Assembly: GCA_025353235.1 (NCBI GenBank)
Contig: JANXQZ010000040.1
Coordinates: 1 to 16,638, forward strand
DNA: 16,638 bases
Direction of reading: 5' to 3'
Source: Bryobacterales bacterium
Lineage (GTDB): Bacteria; Acidobacteriota; Terriglobia; Bryobacterales; Bryobacteraceae
The number at the start of each line of letters is the position of its first letter. Position 1 is the stretch's first letter. The position numbers and the translations under genes were made by a program. The notes under the pieces are model-generated. The model saw only the letters and a program-made list of their open reading frames with translations, was not told the origin of the DNA and made no database searches. Positions 794-8,552 of the stretch are shown here, piece after piece.

Positions 794-823
794 AGCCCGG
801 CCGCCGCAATTTTCGGCCGGGCT
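794..823. terminator. Perfect hairpin between two convergent genes
   Basis: A perfect 10-bp inverted repeat (AGCCCGGCCG at 794-803 and its complement at 814-823) encloses a 10-nt loop and sits exactly between two convergent genes. Its right arm overlaps the stop codon of the minus-strand surface protein by two bases. There is no T-run on either strand, so it is not a canonical intrinsic terminator, but position and strength suggest a bidirectional transcription stop or 3'-end stabiliser. Confidence 0.6.
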
Positions 824-1100
824 AAGGATTGGCCACCGTGATGCTAATGTTGGCCGTATGTACGACATGTCCCACGTCGGTAGCCGTTAAAGCTAGTGTG
901 TGAGATCCGCTCCTCATATACGGCGTGTTCAGAAGCGTATCGTAGCCCGACGAACCCCAATACAGCCTCTGCGGAGTTCCACCGTCGACGGATAGCGTGA
1001 TTCCGGCGTTGTCGTCCACCGAGAATGTCATGCCGGCCCTGACGTCAAGCAGGCCGGAAACGGTCTGGCCATTGGCGGGATAGACGAAGTACAGGGGCGT
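822..1100 (-). repeat. Ig-like module copy 3 (C-terminal) of the surface protein
   Basis: One of three homologous segments of about 90 codons in the surface protein gene; the others are at 2053-2321 and 2449-2720. All begin with (T)P-(L/V)YF and GQTVSGL, carry YW-S-GYDTL in the middle, and end in an I/V-T-V strand. The similarity is visible in both protein and DNA. The architecture resembles bacterial Ig-like (Big) domains; the exact subfamily cannot be fixed by eye. Confidence 0.75.
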
Positions 1101-3566
1101 CGCGGAAACCGGCGGCGGGATCGGGGTCGGAGTCGGAGTCGGCAGGGGAGTAGGAGTGGGCGATGGGGCCACGCCCAGTGTGAACGACACCGCCGAACCG
1201 GGAAGCTGCACGTCCGATGCGCCTGACGTGTCAGTCAAATCGGCTGCCCAGACCCAGGCCTGATGCGTTTTGCCGTCCGAGTAAGAGGCTGGCAGCTTGT
1301 AGTGGAATCCATGATTTCCTTTGCCGGAGACGGCATCCGATGCCGTAAGAATTGTGATAGGAGGCGAGCCTGCCCCGCCGTTGATCACATTCAGCAATAA
1401 AACCACGTGCCCCGCGCTCCGCGAATCGCTTCCTCCCACTCCGCAGAATTTTTCGGAACTAGCGCCGTAGGGGTTGCCTCCGCCCCCCGTGTCTCCGGGA
1501 GTGTAGTAGCAATGCGCATTGGCGGCCAGCCAGTTGATGGATGCATCGAACGGATCGGGTATCTGCCCGCTCGGCAACCTCGGCGGCAAGTAACCGGGAT
1601 TGCAGTTAATGGCAGCGGTGCCTTTCCAATCCGCGTGATAGCATTTGCCGTCCACTCCCAGATAGTCGATCTGTCCCACAAACTGGCGGTTGATGGTGGC
1701 GCAGGCGAGGTTGGGCGGCAGCAAAAGCAAACCCAAATTCTGGGTGATCAAATCGAGGTGGCAAACGTCGCCGTTCGGTGTGAGCGGTGGGTTATTGGGG
1801 TCAATTGGGGGAATTATCGGCGCGACGATGGGAGTGCCGGTGCCTGCGTTGCTGTCGATATAGATTCGCACCTGCACAGGCAACGAAAGGTTGTCTGGAT
1901 CTTCCGCCCATCCGCTCACTGTCCCGTCCGTGGCAACGCCGTCTAAATTGCCAACTGGCTTTTGGTTGCCGGGAACCGGGGTTGGCGTTGGCGTCGGGGT
2001 AGGGCCTGGATTCGGGGTGGGTGTTGGCACCGGGGGTGGTGGCGTAACAATGTTGGACACCGTAATCGTCACCGTAGCCGTGTACGTGCTTCCGCCCAGA
2101 TCCTTGGCCGTCAAGGTCATCGTGTGCGATCCGTCGCCCAGGCTGGAAGTGCTGAGCAAGGTGTCGTATCCGCTCGAACTCCAATACAGGCGCTGCGGCG
2201 GCCTTCCGTCCAGGGAAAGTCTTATGCCAGCGCCGTCGTCCACGGTGAACGTCATGCCGGCTTTGACGTCGAATAGCCCGGAAACGGTTTGGCCGTTGGT
2301 GGGCGAAGCAAAATAAAGCGGCGAGATCACTGGAGGCGGGGCGGGAGTTGGAGTCGGTGTGGGTATAGGGGTCGGAGTTGGAGTTGGAGTGGGTGTGGGG
2401 GTTGGTGTGGGCGTCGGGGTGGGAGTGGGAACCGGCACGGGAACCAAGCTAGCCACAGAAACTGTGATTGTGGACGTGTACGGGTTGCCGCTCAGGTCGT
2501 ACGCTCTTAGGGTGAACGTGTGCGGTCCAACGCTCAGGACAGCCGTGTTGATCAAGGTATCGTAGCCCGCCGCGCTCCAGTAAAGCTTTGTCGGAGGCCT
2601 CCCGTCCAAAATCAGGGTAATGCCTGCGCTCTCGTTTATGGAAGGAGCCACGCCGGCTCTTACGTCGAGCAAACCGGAAACAGTTTGACCGTCGGCGGGC
2701 GCGACAAAATACACCGGTGTCGAGGCGGCAGCAGCCGTAGCTTCCGGTGCGGCAGCCAGATAATTCCTGTACGGCTCCGAATTGATTCTATTGTTGACGA
2801 TCGTTAGATTGTCGCTGTCAAAAAGCTCCAGATCGGTGTCGAGCGTGTTTCCGGTTATCGAGACGTGGGCGCTGCTCCGCACGCGCATCACTCCCCCGTT
2901 GACCGAGTTATTCGCAAACGAGCCATAAGGGCTATTCTGAATCGATACCGCGGGCGAACCCGGCTTCTTTTTGTTGTCCAGCGCGCCTATTTTGCAGTTC
3001 GCAATCGAATAGCGGGCGGCCTCGCCGATGGTCATTGCCGAGAAGCCGAAACCTCTGCAATCCAGCAGCACGTTTGACACATCGTGGATGCTGATGCACG
3101 CCGTGCCAGTAGAGGCTAAATCGGCATTGAGCGAGTAGGTGCCGCTCCGGGTAATTTCACCGCAAGAGGTAAGTGCTATGGGAACGGCGGCGCGGTGTTG
3201 AGGAGCCTGCTCACTTACAGGCTCAATGGCAGACATCGTCACGTCGAGCCTCAAACCACTGCCGGCGCTTAGCGGGTCATCTGGACTTACAAACGTGCTT
3301 GTATATTGCCGGAAGCCGGGAGCATCGCCTGCGATCGTATAAAGTCCGGAAGGCAGGGTTCCCAAGTCGAAGCTGCCGTCCTGCCTGGAAATCGCGCGAT
3401 GGGTCCGTGTAGGGCCGACGCCGTGCACGGTGATCGTGGCGCCAGGCAGCGGCAAGCCAGTGGCATCCAGCACGGCCCCTCGAATTTCGCCGCGGCCATG
3501 CATCTGAGCTAATCCAGCGCACGAAAACGCGAGCATCAGCGCGCCGCAGCGCGTGAGCTTGGTCAT
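822..3566 (-). CDS. Large modular secreted/surface protein: carboxypeptidase-regulatory domain, beta-helix-like segment, three Ig-like modules on Pro-Thr linkers
   Basis: This protein of 914 residues is probably exported and displayed at the cell surface. The start at 3566 is chosen because GGAGGTAG lies just upstream and the next residues form a signal peptide (about 1-21). Domains in order: a carboxypeptidase-regulatory-like beta sandwich (about 26-112); a segment of short asparagine-rich repeats resembling a right-handed beta-helix (about 145-262; for example VSITGNTL, LTIVNNRI); Ig-like module 1 (283-373); a long Pro-Thr linker (about 376-414); Ig module 2 (416-504); a linker (509-531); a cysteine-containing region (about 532-795) that opens with GWAEDPD and closes with GNHGFHYKLP; a linker; and Ig module 3 (823-914) at the very end. 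The modules share GQTVSGL-DV, YW-S-GYDTL and SHT-LT. No enzyme motif or sortase/PEP-CTERM anchor was seen. A glycan-binding or adhesive role is an inference. Confidence 0.8.
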   Translation of the reverse strand: MTKLTRCGALMLAFSCAGLAQMHGRGEIRGAVLDATGLPLPGATITVHGVGPTRTHRAISRQDGSFDLGTLPSGLYTIAGDAPGFRQYTSTFVSPDDPLSAGSGLRLDVTMSAIEPVSEQAPQHRAAVPIALTSCGEITRSGTYSLNADLASTGTACISIHDVSNVLLDCRGFGFSAMTIGEAARYSIANCKIGALDNKKKPGSPAVSIQNSPYGSFANNSVNGGVMRVRSSAHVSITGNTLDTDLELFDSDNLTIVNNRINSEPYRNYLAAAPEATAAAASTPVYFVAPADGQTVSGLLDVRAGVAPSINESAGITLILDGRPPTKLYWSAAGYDTLINTAVLSVGPHTFTLRAYDLSGNPYTSTITVSVASLVPVPVPTPTPTPTPTPTPTPTPTPTPIPTPTPTPAPPPVISPLYFASPTNGQTVSGLFDVKAGMTFTVDDGAGIRLSLDGRPPQRLYWSSSGYDTLLSTSSLGDGSHTMTLTAKDLGGSTYTATVTITVSNIVTPPPPVPTPTPNPGPTPTPTPTPVPGNQKPVGNLDGVATDGTVSGWAEDPDNLSLPVQVRIYIDSNAGTGTPIVAPIIPPIDPNNPPLTPNGDVCHLDLITQNLGLLLLPPNLACATINRQFVGQIDYLGVDGKCYHADWKGTAAINCNPGYLPPRLPSGQIPDPFDASINWLAANAHCYYTPGDTGGGGNPYGASSEKFCGVGGSDSRSAGHVVLLLNVINGGAGSPPITILTASDAVSGKGNHGFHYKLPASYSDGKTHQAWVWAADLTDTSGASDVQLPGSAVSFTLGVAPSPTPTPLPTPTPTPIPPPVSATPLYFVYPANGQTVSGLLDVRAGMTFSVDDNAGITLSVDGGTPQRLYWGSSGYDTLLNTPYMRSGSHTLALTATDVGHVVHTANISITVANP
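2053..2321 (-). repeat. Ig-like module copy 2 of the surface protein
   Basis: The middle copy of the three homologous modules. It is closest to the C-terminal copy: the GMTF-VDD and RPPQRLYW stretches are nearly shared. Pro-Thr linkers flank it on both sides. Confidence 0.75.
2341..2434 (-). repeat. Hexanucleotide-type repeat encoding the long Pro-Thr linker
   Basis: A low-complexity tract on the plus strand is built of GGTGTG, GGAGTT and GGCGTC-like six-base units. Read on the minus strand these are alternating Pro and Thr codons (PTPTPTP). Shorter tracts of the same kind occur near 1101-1166 and 1975-2040. Six-base units keep the reading frame, so gain or loss of units would only change linker length. 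Confidence 0.85.
2449..2720 (-). repeat. Ig-like module copy 1 of the surface protein
   Basis: The first copy of the module and the most divergent: GVAPSINESAG replaces the GMTF-VDD stretch of the others. It follows an alanine-rich hinge after the beta-helix-like region and leads into the long Pro-Thr linker. Confidence 0.7.
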
Positions 3567-3839
3567 ACCTCTACCTCCGCGCAAGAATTTACTCCTACGC
3601 TGAAGCGTCACGGACAGACGCCCGCTCCACCCCGTTCAGATTTTGTGTTCTTAATGATTCTAGCTTGTTTTACTCCCATTTTCAGATCTATTTCGCTCCC
3701 TAAGCTCTTAACCCTAGGCATGTTCTCGGTGAATTCCGTAGCCCAACTTAGGAGGTTGGCTGAGCTTCGCGGCGGATCTGTATTTTATATTTCAGTGCGG
3801 GAGCGCAATGCGGAGAAGTTGGTTGAAGCTCTCCGGGTA
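3567..3839. other. Intergenic region, 273 bases
   Basis: The gap between the DUF262 gene and the surface-protein gene, both on the minus strand. It is more AT-rich than its flanks. I see the surface-protein ribosome binding site at its left end, a minor ACGCT-GA-AGCGT mini-hairpin near 3597-3608, and no convincing consensus promoter, terminator or small gene. Confidence 0.5.
3571..3578 (-). promoter_or_regulatory. Strong Shine-Dalgarno that fixes the surface-protein start
   Basis: Read on the minus strand, GGAGGTAG lies four bases before the ATG at 3566. A longer in-frame start at 3611 would add 15 basic residues ahead of a clean signal peptide and has no comparable site. Confidence 0.7.
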
Positions 3840-4934
3840 CTACGGGATATCCGCGAATGCAGCGGTGGCGAGGTCCAGCCGCTTAGCGACACTCTCCTCA
3901 TCTGCGGTAGCTCGTTCAGTAACTGCGAGAAAATCAGGGTTGACGAGAAGGGCAGTGTACATCTTATTCAGCAGATCAAGGTTCACGAGAGGTCCTCGCG
4001 CGAGACGCCGGGCAATTCCGACCATAACCGAATCGAAAACTGCAGCGTTGAGAACGCGAGCCAATCTAAATGCGCGCTTCCCAATGCTCTGGTGAATTGT
4101 CTCCATGGCCTGGGTGAACTCCGATCTCATTTTCTCTTTTGGGACTGCGGTCAGGTGCCTATTCCTTCCCATGAAGTCATTCAAGAATCCTTTCATCGGT
4201 CGGCTATACTGACCGGAATCGTGGTACAACGCGAAGAAGCGTAAAATCAGTTCTTGATCTCGCATCAGACTGTTTACGGGACCATAAATTGCTCGCCAGG
4301 AAGCGCCTGCGTTCAATTCCTTGAGAAAGTCACTCAACTCACCATGGTGAATCGCAGTTCTTATCTCTTGTGGAGTAAGCGAAACTCCACTTGTGTTCAG
4401 ACGCTCAAAGATGTGATAGATGCTACTGTCATCGTCTGAGGGTTGGTCCTGCTTCACGATGATTGCGTGTACGATGGAATCATCCAACCGTCGGCGATCA
4501 TCCGAAGCGAGACTCTTGTAGGTAGCGCCCTCGAACTTGCTAATCACTCCTTTGAGAGAAAATTCTTTGCGTGTCAGCGGCCAAATCCCTTCGTAGAAAT
4601 AGCGGAGTGTCGACAGACGCTGCTGACCATCGATTACAAGTAACCTTTGTGTTTCATGCTCCCTGGAAAGAAAAATACTCGGCACTGGTAGACCCAGTAA
4701 CAGGGATTCAACGAAACGAGACGCCTCTCGAAGCGACCAGACATAACCGCGTTGAAATGTTGGAACGATGATGTCCCCCGACGACATGCGCCGAATTAAG
4801 CCGTCTACCGGGTGATCCGCGCCGTAGCTCGTGATTGAGTACCGAAAGGGCACCACCTCATCTGCTTCATCAAGGTTTTCGTCAATCTCCTGTTCGCCTT
4901 GCAAGAGCAAGTCTTTCTGGTATGGTGTAAGCAT
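3840..4934 (-). CDS. DUF262 domain protein (ParB/sulfiredoxin fold, GmrS-like)
   Basis: This protein of 364 residues belongs to the DUF262 family. Visible hallmarks, numbered from the ATG at 4934, are PTFQRGYVW (58-66), the LLGLPVP helix end, the nucleotide-handling motif DGQQR (102-106) and FERLNTSGVSLTPQEIR (176-192). The remaining C-terminal half is helical and lacks the DUF1524 HNH nuclease domain found in full GmrSD or SspE proteins. Family members with known roles sense or restrict modified DNA in an NTP-dependent way; the function of this solo version is unknown. The gene overlaps the 3' end of the upstream phosphoribosyltransferase by 53 bases, so translational coupling is likely. An earlier ATG at 5030 has a good GAGGAG site six bases upstream but would extend the overlap to 149 bases. 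I prefer 4934 because the leader ahead of PFRYSITSYGAD then has the usual family length. Local GC is lower than in the flanking genes. Confidence 0.85.
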   Translation of the reverse strand: MLTPYQKDLLLQGEQEIDENLDEADEVVPFRYSITSYGADHPVDGLIRRMSSGDIIVPTFQRGYVWSLREASRFVESLLLGLPVPSIFLSREHETQRLLVIDGQQRLSTLRYFYEGIWPLTRKEFSLKGVISKFEGATYKSLASDDRRRLDDSIVHAIIVKQDQPSDDDSSIYHIFERLNTSGVSLTPQEIRTAIHHGELSDFLKELNAGASWRAIYGPVNSLMRDQELILRFFALYHDSGQYSRPMKGFLNDFMGRNRHLTAVPKEKMRSEFTQAMETIHQSIGKRAFRLARVLNAAVFDSVMVGIARRLARGPLVNLDLLNKMYTALLVNPDFLAVTERATADEESVAKRLDLATAAFADIP

Positions 4935-5454
4935 CGTCGACTCGGGCGAGGTAGTGGGCTTCCGACTCAGTGAGTCTTTCAAAGCGGTAGCCGAAAGTAG
5001 TAAGCCACCATTCTTCAAACCAGTTTGCATGTTTTCTCCTCAACCCTTGTAACGTATTTTCCAGAGGCGTCAGCTTTGCCGAGTACGATTTGCCTGCAAG
5101 GGCCGTGGCTCCTATCACTCGGCCTCCACGTGATTCAACGAATCCTTTGAGATTGGCGATCGTCCCGCCCTGGCCAATGAAGTCGTCTACGATCAAATAA
5201 TCGACACGCGCCACGTTGCCGTCAAAGATAGCAGGAAACGCAAGTCTGTGATAGCCGTCTGCGCCCGTATGAATAACCCGGTTGATCTGGATCACTTCAT
5301 GCGATACAGAAAGATCAAAGACCGCCGAAAGTTTTCGCGCGAAGACTCTCGGGATCACGTTCATCCCCTCAGATTCAAGCGCGTGTACGGGAAGGAGTAA
5401 CGGATGCGACGATCCCAGGAGCGCCCTGAGTCCATCAAGATTTGCTATCTCCAT
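4882..5454 (-). CDS. Type I phosphoribosyltransferase domain protein
   Basis: This protein of 190 residues has the PRPP-binding loop of type I phosphoribosyltransferases: a hydrophobic strand, then VDDFIGQGGT (89-98 from the ATG at 5454), with the usual acidic pair and the glycine-rich turn. Ahead of it lies NRVIHTGADGYHRL, and after it a LAGKSYSAKL segment, so the Rossmann-like core is complete. The base or acceptor it uses cannot be read from sequence; it is not an obvious pyrE, apt, hpt or upp product. Sites upstream are weak. An in-frame TTG at 5469 would add five residues, and no other start exists before a stop at 5548-5550. It heads a two-gene unit with the DUF262 gene and overlaps it, which implies a joint function, possibly DNA/nucleotide modification or defence (inference). 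Confidence 0.8.
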   Translation of the reverse strand: MEIANLDGLRALLGSSHPLLLPVHALESEGMNVIPRVFARKLSAVFDLSVSHEVIQINRVIHTGADGYHRLAFPAIFDGNVARVDYLIVDDFIGQGGTIANLKGFVESRGGRVIGATALAGKSYSAKLTPLENTLQGLRRKHANWFEEWWLTTFGYRFERLTESEAHYLARVDDAYTIPERLALARRTGD

Positions 5455-5584
5455 GGAATCTTCAAGCAAGCCTTCGGCGGCCCGGGTTTCCCCATCCTTT
5501 GCCCTTGAGTAGAGGGGGTGACTTGATGAACCGCTCGCCCGAATGGATTACGACATCAGGGAAGTCGCCCCAAGCTGTCCGGCG

Positions 5585-5613
5585 AAGATACTCTCTCTCT
5601 GCCGTTAAGTCCA
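5585..5613 (-). promoter_or_regulatory. Possible sigma70-type promoter for the phosphoribosyltransferase-DUF262 unit
   Basis: On the minus strand TGGACT (4/6 to the -35 consensus), a 17-base spacer and TATCTT (4/6 to the -10 consensus) stand about 130 bases before the start codon. The match is weak, and only the correct spacing and position recommend it. Confidence 0.25.
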
Positions 5614-5623
5614 TTTCTCATCA

Positions 5624-5657
5624 GGGGCGACCCATCATGAGTCGCCCCGACAAAATA
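5624..5657 (-). terminator. Hairpin plus conserved TATTTTGT box after katE
   Basis: A perfect 8-bp stem (GGGGCGAC at 5624-5631, GTCGCCCC at 5641-5648) with a 9-base loop begins 13 bases after the katE stop. On the katE strand TATTTTGT immediately precedes the stem. The same arrangement follows msrB at 9441-9475. There is no T-run after the stem, so it may be a 3'-end processing or protection element or a dispersed repeat, not a classic terminator. Confidence 0.5.
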
Positions 5658-5661
5658 AAGC

Positions 5662-7743
5662 CTAGTCGCTAGCTCGTTCCCATACTCTGCCGTTGCGGGC
5701 GAACTCTAGAAACGCCCCCAGATCATGCGACTTCCCGATCTCGGTGACGCCAACCTCCCCGCCCACGTGCGCCTTCGCTGTCAAACTTGGCACTCCCGAA
5801 AGCGCGATCGCCTTCAGATGCCGGTTCGCATCCATTAGGAAACTGACCGCATCGGGATTAGACGTTAAGGTCTTATCCCCTGCCGGTCCCGCCAGAATGG
5901 CCACTGCATCGAACATCACCGAGGGTCCGCCGGAAAGCGCCATGTCGGCTGGGTGCTTGAGACCCGCCGAGTCCTCCGCGCCGCCCACCTTGACCGAGAT
6001 CAGCGCAGCAGCCGCTCCTTCCTTGGCGATAGCCGCAACCAGCGCGTCTTTTAGTTTGTCATCGAAGCCAGCCGCGAGCAGTACGCCAATTTTTCTACCC
6101 TTCAGCGTAGGCGCATATTTGCCGTACAATCGCAAAGCCGGGCTCAGCGCCACATCCTTCGGCATCAATCCGGCCGTGATCTTCTCGGCCTGACCTGTCA
6201 TCCCGAGTTCGTCGGCGACCTTGCTTCCCAGGCTCGTATCGATGATGTCGAGATGGCCGAGCATCCGCTTCCGAATCTCCACGATGTCTACTTTGCTGAG
6301 TTCGAAAGTTAACGCCTTAACGATGTGCTTTTGCTCCTGCGGTGTCACCGAGCGGAAGAACATGCGCGCCTGAGAATAATGATCGGCGAAAGACTCCGCT
6401 CGCAAGCGAACTTTGGTGCCCTCCACCGGAATGGGCGCCGTGTGGAATCCACGCGAAGTTTCCCGAGGCCCATGTAGGTCAATCGAGTTCGGCTCGTAGT
6501 TGCCCCGGCCTTTCGGCACTTCCATCTGCATATGGCCATCGCGCTGCAGATTGGCGAACGGGCACTTCGGACGGTTGATCGGGAGCTCATGGAAATTGGG
6601 GGATCCCAATCTGCTGAGTTGCGTATCGAGATACGAAAAGAGCCGTCCCTGCAACAGCGGGTCCTCGCTAAAATCAATGCCGGGCACAACATGGCTGGGG
6701 CAGAAGGCAACCTGCTCCGTCTCCGCAAAGAAATTATCCGGGTTCCGGTCAAGCACCATTTTGCCGACCATTTCAATGGGTACGATCTCTTCTGGGATTA
6801 GCTTCGTGGCATCCAGGATGTCGAAGTCGAAGTCATCGGCCATCTTTTGATCGAGAAGCTGGAAGCCGAATTCCCACTCCGGATAGTTGCCTTTCGCAAT
6901 AGACTCGTACAAATCGCGTCGATGAAAATCCGGGTCGGCGCCGCTGATCTTAACCGCCTCATCCCACATGACTGCGGCGGTTCCCAGAATGGGGCGCCAG
7001 TGGAACTTAACGAACTTGAACTCTCCAGCGGCGTTCACCAGCCGAAAAGTGTTGACGCCGAAACCTTCCATCATCCGCAGCGATCGCGGAATAGCACGGT
7101 CCGACATCGCCCACATGATCATGTGCAGCGACTCCGGCATTAATGAGATAAAATCCCAAAAAGTATCGTGCGCCGATCCTGCTTGAGGATAGCCGCGGTC
7201 GGCTTCCATCTTGACGGAGTGAATCAAATCGGGAAACTTGATGGCGTCCTGAATGAAGAACACCGGAATGTTGTTCCCCACCAGGTCGAAGTTGCCCTGC
7301 TGCGTGTAGAACTTCACGGCGAATCCTCGTACATCGCGCGGCAGGTCCACCGATCCGGCTCCTCCGGCCACGGTCGAGAACCGCGCGAATACTGGCGTCC
7401 TTACTGCAGGGTCCGCCAGGAAAGCCGCGCTGGTCACGTGCGCCATGGATTTATAGGGCTGAAAATAGCCGTGCGCCGCAGAGCCTCTGGCATGTACAAT
7501 TCGCTCGGGGATGCGCTCATGATCGAAGTGAGTGATCTTTTCGCGCAGAATGAAATCTTCGAGCAGGGTGGGCCCTCGCCCGCCGCCCTTCAAGGAATTC
7601 TGGTTATCGGAAATAGGTAGGCCTTGGTTTGTTGTGAGGACGCTCCCTTTGCCTGATGCTTGCTGGTGCGTCTCGCCGCCTTTAGGCGTTTCCGGGCTGT
7701 GGTGTTTTGGTGTTTTGTCTCGCACGTCCCTAGAATAACTCAC
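5662..7743 (-). CDS. katE: Large-subunit monofunctional catalase, HPII type
   Basis: This haem catalase disproportionates hydrogen peroxide to water and oxygen in the cytoplasm. Counted from the GTG at 7743 (693 residues), it shows the catalytic histidine in [13 protein letters not shown] (His84), the distal asparagine in [11 protein letters not shown] (Asn157), and the haem-ligand tyrosine in [12 protein letters not shown] (Tyr371). Long stretches match E. coli HPII as I recall it (for example [20 protein letters not shown]). The C-terminal 150 or so residues (from about KGRKIGVLL) form the DJ-1/flavodoxin-like domain typical of large-subunit catalases. The cysteine in AFCPSH (Cys348) occupies the position of the HPII histidine that is crosslinked to the haem tyrosine. 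The start is uncertain: GTG at 7743 or 7725 are both weak, and the frame runs open to 7878, but that would overlap the divergent gene. The N-terminal arm is shorter than in E. coli. Confidence 0.95.
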
Positions 7744-7809
7744 GTGTTCTACAACTGCCGGAGACGCTCCCAACCCTCGCGCAAACGCTTGCCGTAGAAG
7801 CGGACTAAG

Positions 7810-8552
7810 ATGAGGAAAGTGATTCGAAAACGCGGGTGGCTCCTCTGTGCGGCGGTTCTCTTTGCAGCGCTCGCGCATGGGGAGGATCCGCCTGCCAATT
7901 TAATCCGGCGTGTCATCGAGCGCGAGACCGAGACGCAGCGCGTGCAGGCCAACTACACCTATCAACAAACAGTCGCCGTGGAAGAGTTCGATCGGCGCGG
8001 CATGAAGACTGGCGAGTACCGCGAATCACGCGACATCATCTTCTCGCCTTCGCACGACCGCACCGAGCAGTTAACCGGTCCTCCGAAAAACTCGCTGGCC
8101 TTGCTGAAGCTGACCGAGAGGACTTTCGCGACCTCCGCGACGTTCAACCTTTCCTGCTTACCGCCGATCAAGCGTTTATCTACGAAACCAAGTTCCGGGG
8201 CGAGGAAGTCATCGAAGGCACCGACTGTTGGGTGATCCAGGTGCGTCCGCGTCAGATCCTGCAAGGGCAGCGTCTTTTCGATGGCCTGCTCTGGGTAAAC
8301 AAGAAAGACTTCTCCATCATCCGCGGCTCGGGAGAGGCGGTTCCTCAGATTCGCACTCTGCACTCGGAAAATCTGTTTCCGCACTTCACGACCGTGCGCG
8401 AGAAGACAGCGGGAGGTTTCTGGTTTCCGGCTGTGACCTCCGGCGACGACACGCTCCAGTTTCGGACCGGTCCGCAGCGCATGCGCCTCACCATTCGCTA
8501 TCGCGATTACCAGCGATTCGGAGCGGACTCCGCGATCACATTTGAGAAATAA
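7810..8552 (+). pseudogene. Secreted protein of about 247 residues, broken by a one-base frameshift
   Basis: Two overlapping frames together make one protein. The first (from ATG 7810) supplies a signal peptide (KRGWLLCAAVLFAALAHG) and the N-terminal part to about LKLTE. The second supplies DFRDLRDVQPF, then YETKFRGEE, CWVIQVRPRQIL, GQRLFDGLLWV and a C-terminus ending AITFEK at 8552. The join is clean at 8116-8121, where GAGAGGAC would read GAG-GAG-GAC if one G were restored, giving LTEEDFRD. The layout (signal peptide, alternating beta strands, about 250 residues) is that of acidobacterial outer-membrane lipoprotein-sorting-like (LolA-fold) exported proteins as I remember them; this identification is tentative. 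Divergent from katE with only 66 bases between. The break could be a sequencing error, a real inactivating mutation, or less likely programmed slippage. Confidence 0.75.

Follow-up and report, generated by a model that had tools for sequence, protein, structure and literature searches.

The 16,638-nucleotide stretch of DNA analysed here (the window; contig JANXQZ010000040.1 of GenBank assembly GCA_025353235.1, from a Bryobacterales bacterium) carries two overlapping genes, one for a phosphoribosyltransferase (PRTase) and one for a DUF262 protein, which, judged by sequence comparison, are kept together as a two-gene unit in one clade, found in some soil bacteria. The pair is probably a two-gene conflict module of the PD-T4-2 kind, in which the HEPN ribonuclease (RNase) effector would have been replaced by a PRTase of the KfrC/MuF group that uses phosphoribosyl pyrophosphate (PRPP). 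A prediction made earlier from the letters of the window alone (the original prediction) had proposed an undescribed two-gene system. Conservation of the pair in one clade was borne out and no description of it was found, but the pair is not a stand-alone new kind of system, since its DUF262 protein is related to PD-T4-2_A and NsnA and such relatives usually adjoin a HEPN gene. The two minus-strand open reading frames (ORFs) spanned positions 3840-5030 (DUF262) and 4882-5469 (PRTase), with the following features:

3840..5030, minus strand: DUF262 gene (GmrSD_N / ParB-Srx nucleoside triphosphatase, NTPase) of PD-T4-2_A / NsnA type, 396 amino acids (aa), from Pfam and PADLOC
4617..4631, minus strand: DGQQR nucleotide-pocket motif of DUF262, read in the sequence
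4934, minus strand: alternative DUF262 start, which would give 364 aa
4882..5030, minus strand: coding overlap of 149 bp, in two frames, between the 3' end of the PRTase gene and the 5' end of the DUF262 gene
5036..5041, minus strand: GAGGAG, likely ribosome-binding site of DUF262 within the PRTase gene, with a purine-rich counterpart in locus L011
4882..5614, minus strand: PRTase gene, frameshifted, with its N-terminal part at 5483-5614 and the rest at 4882-5526 in another frame
4882..5454, minus strand: remaining PRTase ORF from the first ATG, 190 aa, with the catalytic core kept and approximately 54 N-terminal residues missing
5161..5190, minus strand: PRPP-binding loop VDDFIGQGGT, read in the sequence

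Both signatures named in the original prediction, VDDFIGQGGT and that of DUF262, were present. The 396 aa DUF262 protein matched Pfam PF03235 (GmrSD_N) with E-values of 2.8e-30 to 3.3e-30, its sole Pfam match at E ≤ 0.001, and in PADLOC matched NsnA at 1.2e-68 (the higher score) and PD-T4-2_A at 1e-51 over residues 65-392; BrxU was its best profile and fold match. The motif [IV]DGQQR was noted in 86 of 102 rows on the PRTase-linked side of the DUF262 tree described below, and DGQQR in 38 of the 42 others. In agreement with the original prediction, DUF1524 was absent: neither DUF1524 nor HNH was matched in the DUF262 protein, and Pfam gave no nuclease match in the neighbouring genes at 822-3611 and 5662-7878. 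GmrSD-type restriction was rejected because no DUF1524 was found.

A HEPN RNase-type gene adjoined the DUF262 gene at 18 of 22 related loci that were tested independently on DNA. DUF262 relatives were sought in 396 genomes of the phylum, 257 genomes of the order and viral contigs, and their neighbours were scored with a local HEPN profile built from six plasmid and phage partners (L141-L146) that were not themselves counted as tests. With this profile, a neighbouring HEPN was detected in 9 of 11 genomes other than the window's own in the phylum search and at 5 of 6 places in the order search, the sixth lying at a contig end. Of 26 DUF262 loci in viral contigs, testing covered the seven with long matches, of which six were positive, or four of five after removal of copies; L158 and L159 were excluded as 100% and approximately 97% identical to L146, a phage record used in the profile. 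Two of the HEPNs were confirmed by Pfam as PF18735, the domain given for PD-T4-2 (PMC10952713). DUF262 relatives were also present in 127 plasmid and 37 phage records, and in each of six such records examined DUF262 was followed by a gene for 163-180 aa, annotated as HEPN in four. No PRTase was seen in the examined stretches of the 22 tested loci, some of which extended approximately 1.5 kb per side. The local profile detected no HEPN at the window or at L011, the two loci of the PRTase-linked clade readable as DNA, and PF18735 had no match in the window's genome; controls for the latter search were positive in all five genomes chosen for known HEPN and negative in 14 well-known genomes.

The relationship between the two kinds of partner was evident from a DUF262 tree of 144 rows, of the quick kind and with long branches flagged, in which PRTase-linked and HEPN-linked rows were separated by a single change (branch support by the Shimodaira-Hasegawa-like approximate likelihood ratio test, SH-aLRT, 98). 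The labels comprised 15 PRTase-linked rows (one later dropped) and 19 HEPN-linked rows (the six profile records included); L135, with its gene lying across two frames, was left out, as were the short duplicate stretches L115-L123 and L126, and every listed DUF262 protein was retained. With rooting at the midpoint or on the most distant rows, the PRTase-linked rows formed one clade nested within the HEPN-linked rows, the pattern that would be expected from an effector swap, and this rooting suggests that the swap ran from HEPN to PRTase.

Linkage of PRTase and DUF262 within this clade was indicated by three lines of comparison. In the first, lengths of PRTase-bearing and DUF262-bearing contigs (119 of each with lengths) coincided 13 times as opposed to 1.7 expected from shifted lengths (maximum of 6 in 120 shifts), and for contigs longer than 5 kb the corresponding figures were 7 of 32 as opposed to 0.07. 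Equal lengths suggest that both genes lie on the same contig, not that they are adjacent. One match (P0063/P0226) was dropped because the distances disagreed, although it is still labelled as linked in both trees; one of the remaining 12 was the near-twin of the window. In the second comparison, PRTase and DUF262 distances were correlated among the 13 matches and L011 (r=0.59, p=2.5e-4), and more closely so without the dropped match (r=0.76, p=5e-5).

The third comparison made use of the gene overlap. From 5030, where GAGGAG precedes an ATG, the DUF262 frame is open, and this position is the most likely start because of the Shine-Dalgarno-like site, because L011 (Acidobacteriaceae bog_226) has no Met at the site matching the shorter start at 4934 and because an N-terminal extension was present in 40 of 120 DUF262 homologues among the matches listed. 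The overlap, which the original prediction had recognized and put at 53 bases or more, is thus most likely 149 bp, and it is exactly 149 bp in L011 as well. Across it, the N-terminal part of DUF262 comes from reading the conserved PRTase stretch EEWW..FGY..ERLTE in the other frame, which leaves a fingerprint, LKNGG...SATALKDSL, that was found by loose match in 38 of 120 DUF262 homologues among the matches listed. All 38 belong to the 92 database rows of the clade, and the 28 database rows outside it lack the fingerprint (Fisher p 4.6e-6). The clade is the smallest one to hold the fingerprint rows and the labelled PRTase-linked rows (94 rows, SH-aLRT 98, none HEPN-linked), and the outside count is restricted to database rows, since 22 of 42 tree rows outside were cut to the profile match and cannot display the fingerprint. 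Nor can it be seen in homologues whose annotation begins at a shorter start; for rows of at least 385 aa, it was present in 36 of 37 inside the clade and absent from the sole row of that length outside. The fingerprint would imply an upstream PRTase, as confirmed on DNA at the window and L011, where the PRTase gene precedes the DUF262 gene. In keeping with the original prediction, linkage was retained in the clade, and neither family was seen mainly in housekeeping contexts. At L011, where the PRTase-DUF262 pair is intact, a HigBA-type toxin-antitoxin pair was noted immediately downstream of it, on the opposite strand (L011:11810-12439).

Linkage did not extend to the PRTase family as a whole. 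From 133 relatives matched by a family profile in genome contigs, the best 80 loci were retained, and viral contigs added 13; DUF262 adjoined PRTase at only one of these 93 loci (L011), which rules out a family-wide tie. This is a rough figure, as 9 of the 93 loci hold less than 1.2 kb downstream of PRTase and there are a few duplicates (L018/L092). At L075, a DUF262 gene was located approximately 7 kb from the PRTase.

By sequence comparison, the PRTase belongs to a group found on mobile elements (KfrC, MuF, polyvalent proteins) and not to base salvage. Its match to Pfam Pribosyltran was below the cut-off (0.0013), and a housekeeping salvage enzyme was rejected on that ground together with NCBIfam scores far below cut-offs and the many mobile-element contexts of the family. 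Structure prediction, which the original prediction had suggested for the pair, gave a PRTase fold in an AlphaFold2 model of the intact relative P0003, with ComF as the best fold match. The pattern DD[FTVILM]xx[QM]G[GA]T was conserved in 205 of 207 family rows and retained in the window copy, and R113 of P0003, a candidate counterpart of the conserved arginine that follows the second strand and is shared with ComFC, was nearly invariant in the family. In PMC5512222, by Iyer and colleagues, the PRTases of phages and conjugative elements are described as a distinct group that has a feature in common with ComFC and occurs solo or fused to MuF, and their role is called enigmatic; the terms KfrC and DUF262 are absent from its main text.

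Fusions and plasmid records supported this placement. KfrC of IncP/IncU plasmids was recovered by the family profile as well as in a tblastn search with P0003, and in alignment the DDT motif of IncU KfrC coincided with the DDF of the PRTase family. A PRTase relative was present in 169 of 72,556 plasmid records, 72 of them from Acinetobacter; in five plasmid regions examined, none from Acinetobacter, the PRTase was the N-terminal part of the protein encoded at the KfrC position, which one record names kfrC, and DUF262 was not detected. PHROG 22413 matched P0003 (2.7e-54) and MuF fusions, the latter identified by Pfam in L022 and L095 (L095 below the cut-off) and by PHROG in L018 and L090, and in phage Mcat8 a "coat protein" adjoining the portal carried the PRTase at its C-terminal end. 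A C-terminal PRTase in MuF/head-morphogenesis proteins of phages and prophages (L108:4975-6714; L018, L022, L090 and L095) recalls proteins that are injected with DNA. Fusion to Cas_GSU0054 (Csb2/Cas5-Cas6, type I-G) was detected by Pfam in L024, L057 and L066 and by PADLOC in L024, L032, L057, L063 and L084; the PRTase domain lies mid-way in the Cas5-Cas6 fusion, L024:9278-11647 adjoins Cas_GSU0053 and Cas3 genes, and approximately 21 loci have a similar layout. No relevant literature was found that joined Csb2/GSU0054 with a phosphoribosyltransferase. Among the PRTase-bearing open frames, 43 of 98 exceeded 380 aa (stop to stop, fragments included). Side observations included a viral-contig protein of 2,410 aa that joins LPD22 and a GNAT acetyltransferase to this PRTase (L098:7541-14770), still longer frames in L100 and L101, and two PRTase relatives in opposite orientation at L055 (3625-4656 and 2-3280 minus), one of them within a frame of 1,093 aa.

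In a PRTase tree of 207 rows, from which L038, L039, L056, L070, L081 and L102 (fewer than 200 profile positions) and five proteins shorter than 185 aa were left out, the labelled DUF262-linked rows grouped together (1 change, support 85), and the surrounding branch (SH-aLRT 99) held no MuF, KfrC or Csb2 forms. The PRTase was rare in Acidobacteriota, being found in 6 of 396 phylum genomes (E ≤ 1e-3; strongly in the window's own only) and, with the window's genome included, in 4 of 399 genomes of the class (E ≤ 1e-10; one frame of 812 aa) and 4 of 61 nearest relatives (E ≤ 1e-3), where two of the three others were broken. Loci L138 (G056:C190) and L137 (G042:C90), of the same order, had PRTase genes broken by stops or frameshifts, with several fragments at one place in G056, as if such genes were easily lost.

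The window corresponds to contig C342 of a draft genome of 5.3 Mb in 1,247 contigs (89.5% complete), and the pair lies immediately downstream of a catalase gene (5662-7878). The original prediction had noted a low GC content inside the DUF262 gene and a poor fit of both genes to the local metabolism. GC content was 50.8% for the DUF262 gene and 51.7% for the pair, compared with 56.5-59.6% for seven other window genes, and was below 54.4% in none of 243 same-length windows outside the pair; third-position GC was 52-55% for the pair and 64-67% in six genes. Pfam families among the neighbours were catalase, SelR, sorbosone dehydrogenase, ATP-grasp, esterase and FAD oxidoreductase, and window genes with Pfam matches were for the most part metabolic or regulatory. 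An inverted repeat of 12 bp (GGGGCGAC stem) was noted at 5624-5648, in the gap that separates the catalase stop from the start of the PRTase; its exact arms-and-spacing pattern occurred once within the window's genome.

The mechanism proposed for the module draws on systems in which a regulator and a PRTase effector have been suggested, i.e., DprA-PRTase and shosTA (PMC9122126). From this parallel and the kinship with PD-T4-2, we infer that DUF262 would restrain the PRTase and release it on infection. In such a scheme, PRTase would be made first and DUF262 translated from its start inside the PRTase gene, giving a fixed ratio; DUF262, as a ParB/Srx-type NTPase, would restrain the PRTase and also sense the invader; a trigger would lead to nucleoside triphosphate hydrolysis and release of the PRTase; and the released enzyme would spend PRPP on a nucleobase or nucleotide target, with growth arrest of the cell and protection of the population. 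Defence activity of the pair is a suggestion, as was the anti-phage role in the original prediction, and one of the two genes is broken in the window's genome.

Several observations weigh against this proposal. Pair loci read as DNA number two alone, the remaining linkage consisting of protein-database footprints; at 4 of the 22 tested DUF262 loci, one of them at a contig end, neither partner was detected; and restraint of PRTase by DUF262 is argued by analogy alone. PADLOC had no match in 11 other window proteins, the catalase among them, so the window is no defence island, and the only notable genes near L011 were the HigBA pair and a DNA methylase 8 kb away. KfrC, approximately 40% identical to this PRTase, was studied in overproduction and had no growth effect in C. 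necator (PMC8124265). Finally, the PRTase copy in the window is itself frameshifted, between 5483 and 5526, as follows from the location of its missing N-terminus in another frame: two segments of the window's genome, 5483-5614 and 4885-5526, matched an intact relative, each in a frame of its own. This copy is probably inactive as an effector, unless an assembly error accounts for the frameshift.

The last point raises the doubtful but not negligible alternative that the window locus is a decaying remnant or an assembly error with nothing functional left. It agrees with the frameshift and with a near-identical contig of 3,555 bases, the PRTase of which (P0001) is 99% identical to that of the window and has the same internal Met start (190 aa); P0001 may come from the same sample as the window, so the frameshift may be an assembly error. 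Against decay, DUF262 is intact with its motifs and 102 of 120 PRTase relatives among the matches listed were full length (at least 235 aa), indicating that the gene is maintained elsewhere. This alternative concerns the window copy alone and is compatible with a conflict module.

We consider it unlikely, if somewhat less so than the last alternative below, that the pair is a plain toxin-antitoxin or stabilisation module, with PRTase as toxin, DUF262 as antitoxin and no role in phage defence. The putative toxin gene does deeply overlap the regulator gene that follows, the L011 copy adjoins HigBA, and occurrence is patchy with broken copies (G042, G056). The PRTase group is also common on plasmids (the 169 records above) and toxic in KfrC: when overproduced, RA3 KfrC made some hosts grow more slowly and condensed the nucleoids, its PRTase fragment by itself resisted stable cloning, and a triple-Ala substitution in the DDT motif abolished the growth effect in E. 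coli (PMC8124265). However, the DUF262 lineage lies among DUF262-HEPN pairs of the PD-T4-2 type, PD-T4-2 protects against T4 (PMC9519451), and the Pfam matches around the window and L011 included no plasmid gene. The converse arrangement, in which DUF262 would be the effector (nuclease or NTPase) and the PRTase product, a modified nucleotide, would signal to it or protect the host, as has been suggested for Ter-system PRTases, draws on proposals of NTPase and nuclease activity for GmrS-type ParB domains and of nucleotide production or sensing for these PRTases (PMC5512222), but is quite improbable given that the partner in sister loci is HEPN, an effector class, that this DUF262 has no DUF1524/HNH domain and that overproduced KfrC is toxic without any DUF262.

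If the pair is indeed a PD-T4-2-like module with a PRTase effector, one sensor protein would drive two unrelated effector chemistries, RNA cleavage and PRPP transfer, giving direct access to the questions of what solo DUF262 proteins detect and how they switch effectors on, and the pair would be a simple two-gene setting for finding the substrate of a long-enigmatic mobile-element PRTase. A broader and more tentative suggestion is that solo DUF262 may be a general sensor with exchangeable effectors, mostly HEPN and here PRTase, and that, with this PRTase shared by plasmids (KfrC), phage heads (MuF) and type I-G Cas5-Cas6, PRPP chemistry may serve as a currency that attack and defence have in common and that has gone unrecognised.

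No literature was found on a DUF262-PRTase pair within a coverage that left out most subscription journals, unposted preprints and other protein names; the Fig. 4 legend of PMC13092281 names a PRTase system that may be related. Among known systems, PD-T4-2 of E. coli ECOR65 (DUF262 and HEPN; PMC9519451, PMC10952713) is alike in its PD-T4-2_A-type DUF262, its two genes and its lack of DUF1524 but has HEPN downstream, whereas here no HEPN was found and a PRTase lies upstream with an overlap of 149 bp. GmrSD, BrxU and SspE share the DUF262 domain with DGQQR, BrxU most closely, but carry a DUF1524, which was found here neither in the protein nor in its two neighbours. The KfrC/polyvalent group (PMC5512222, PMC8124265) has the same PRTase domain family, with DD motif and PRPP loop, whereas, compared with KfrC, MuF and Csb2 forms, the protein described here stands alone, on a separate branch (SH-aLRT 99), and is linked to DUF262. 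In ShosTA and DprA-PRTase (PMC9122126), the PRTase is paired with DprA instead of DUF262; no DprA was seen among Pfam matches of the scanned window proteins or scanned L011 neighbours, the PRTase of the window had no PADLOC match, and identity to ShosT (8zvc, by its title the ShosT structure) in structural alignment was approximately 10%. By analogy, the regulator-effector scheme of DprA-PRTase and shosTA is nonetheless the closest functional parallel to the pair.
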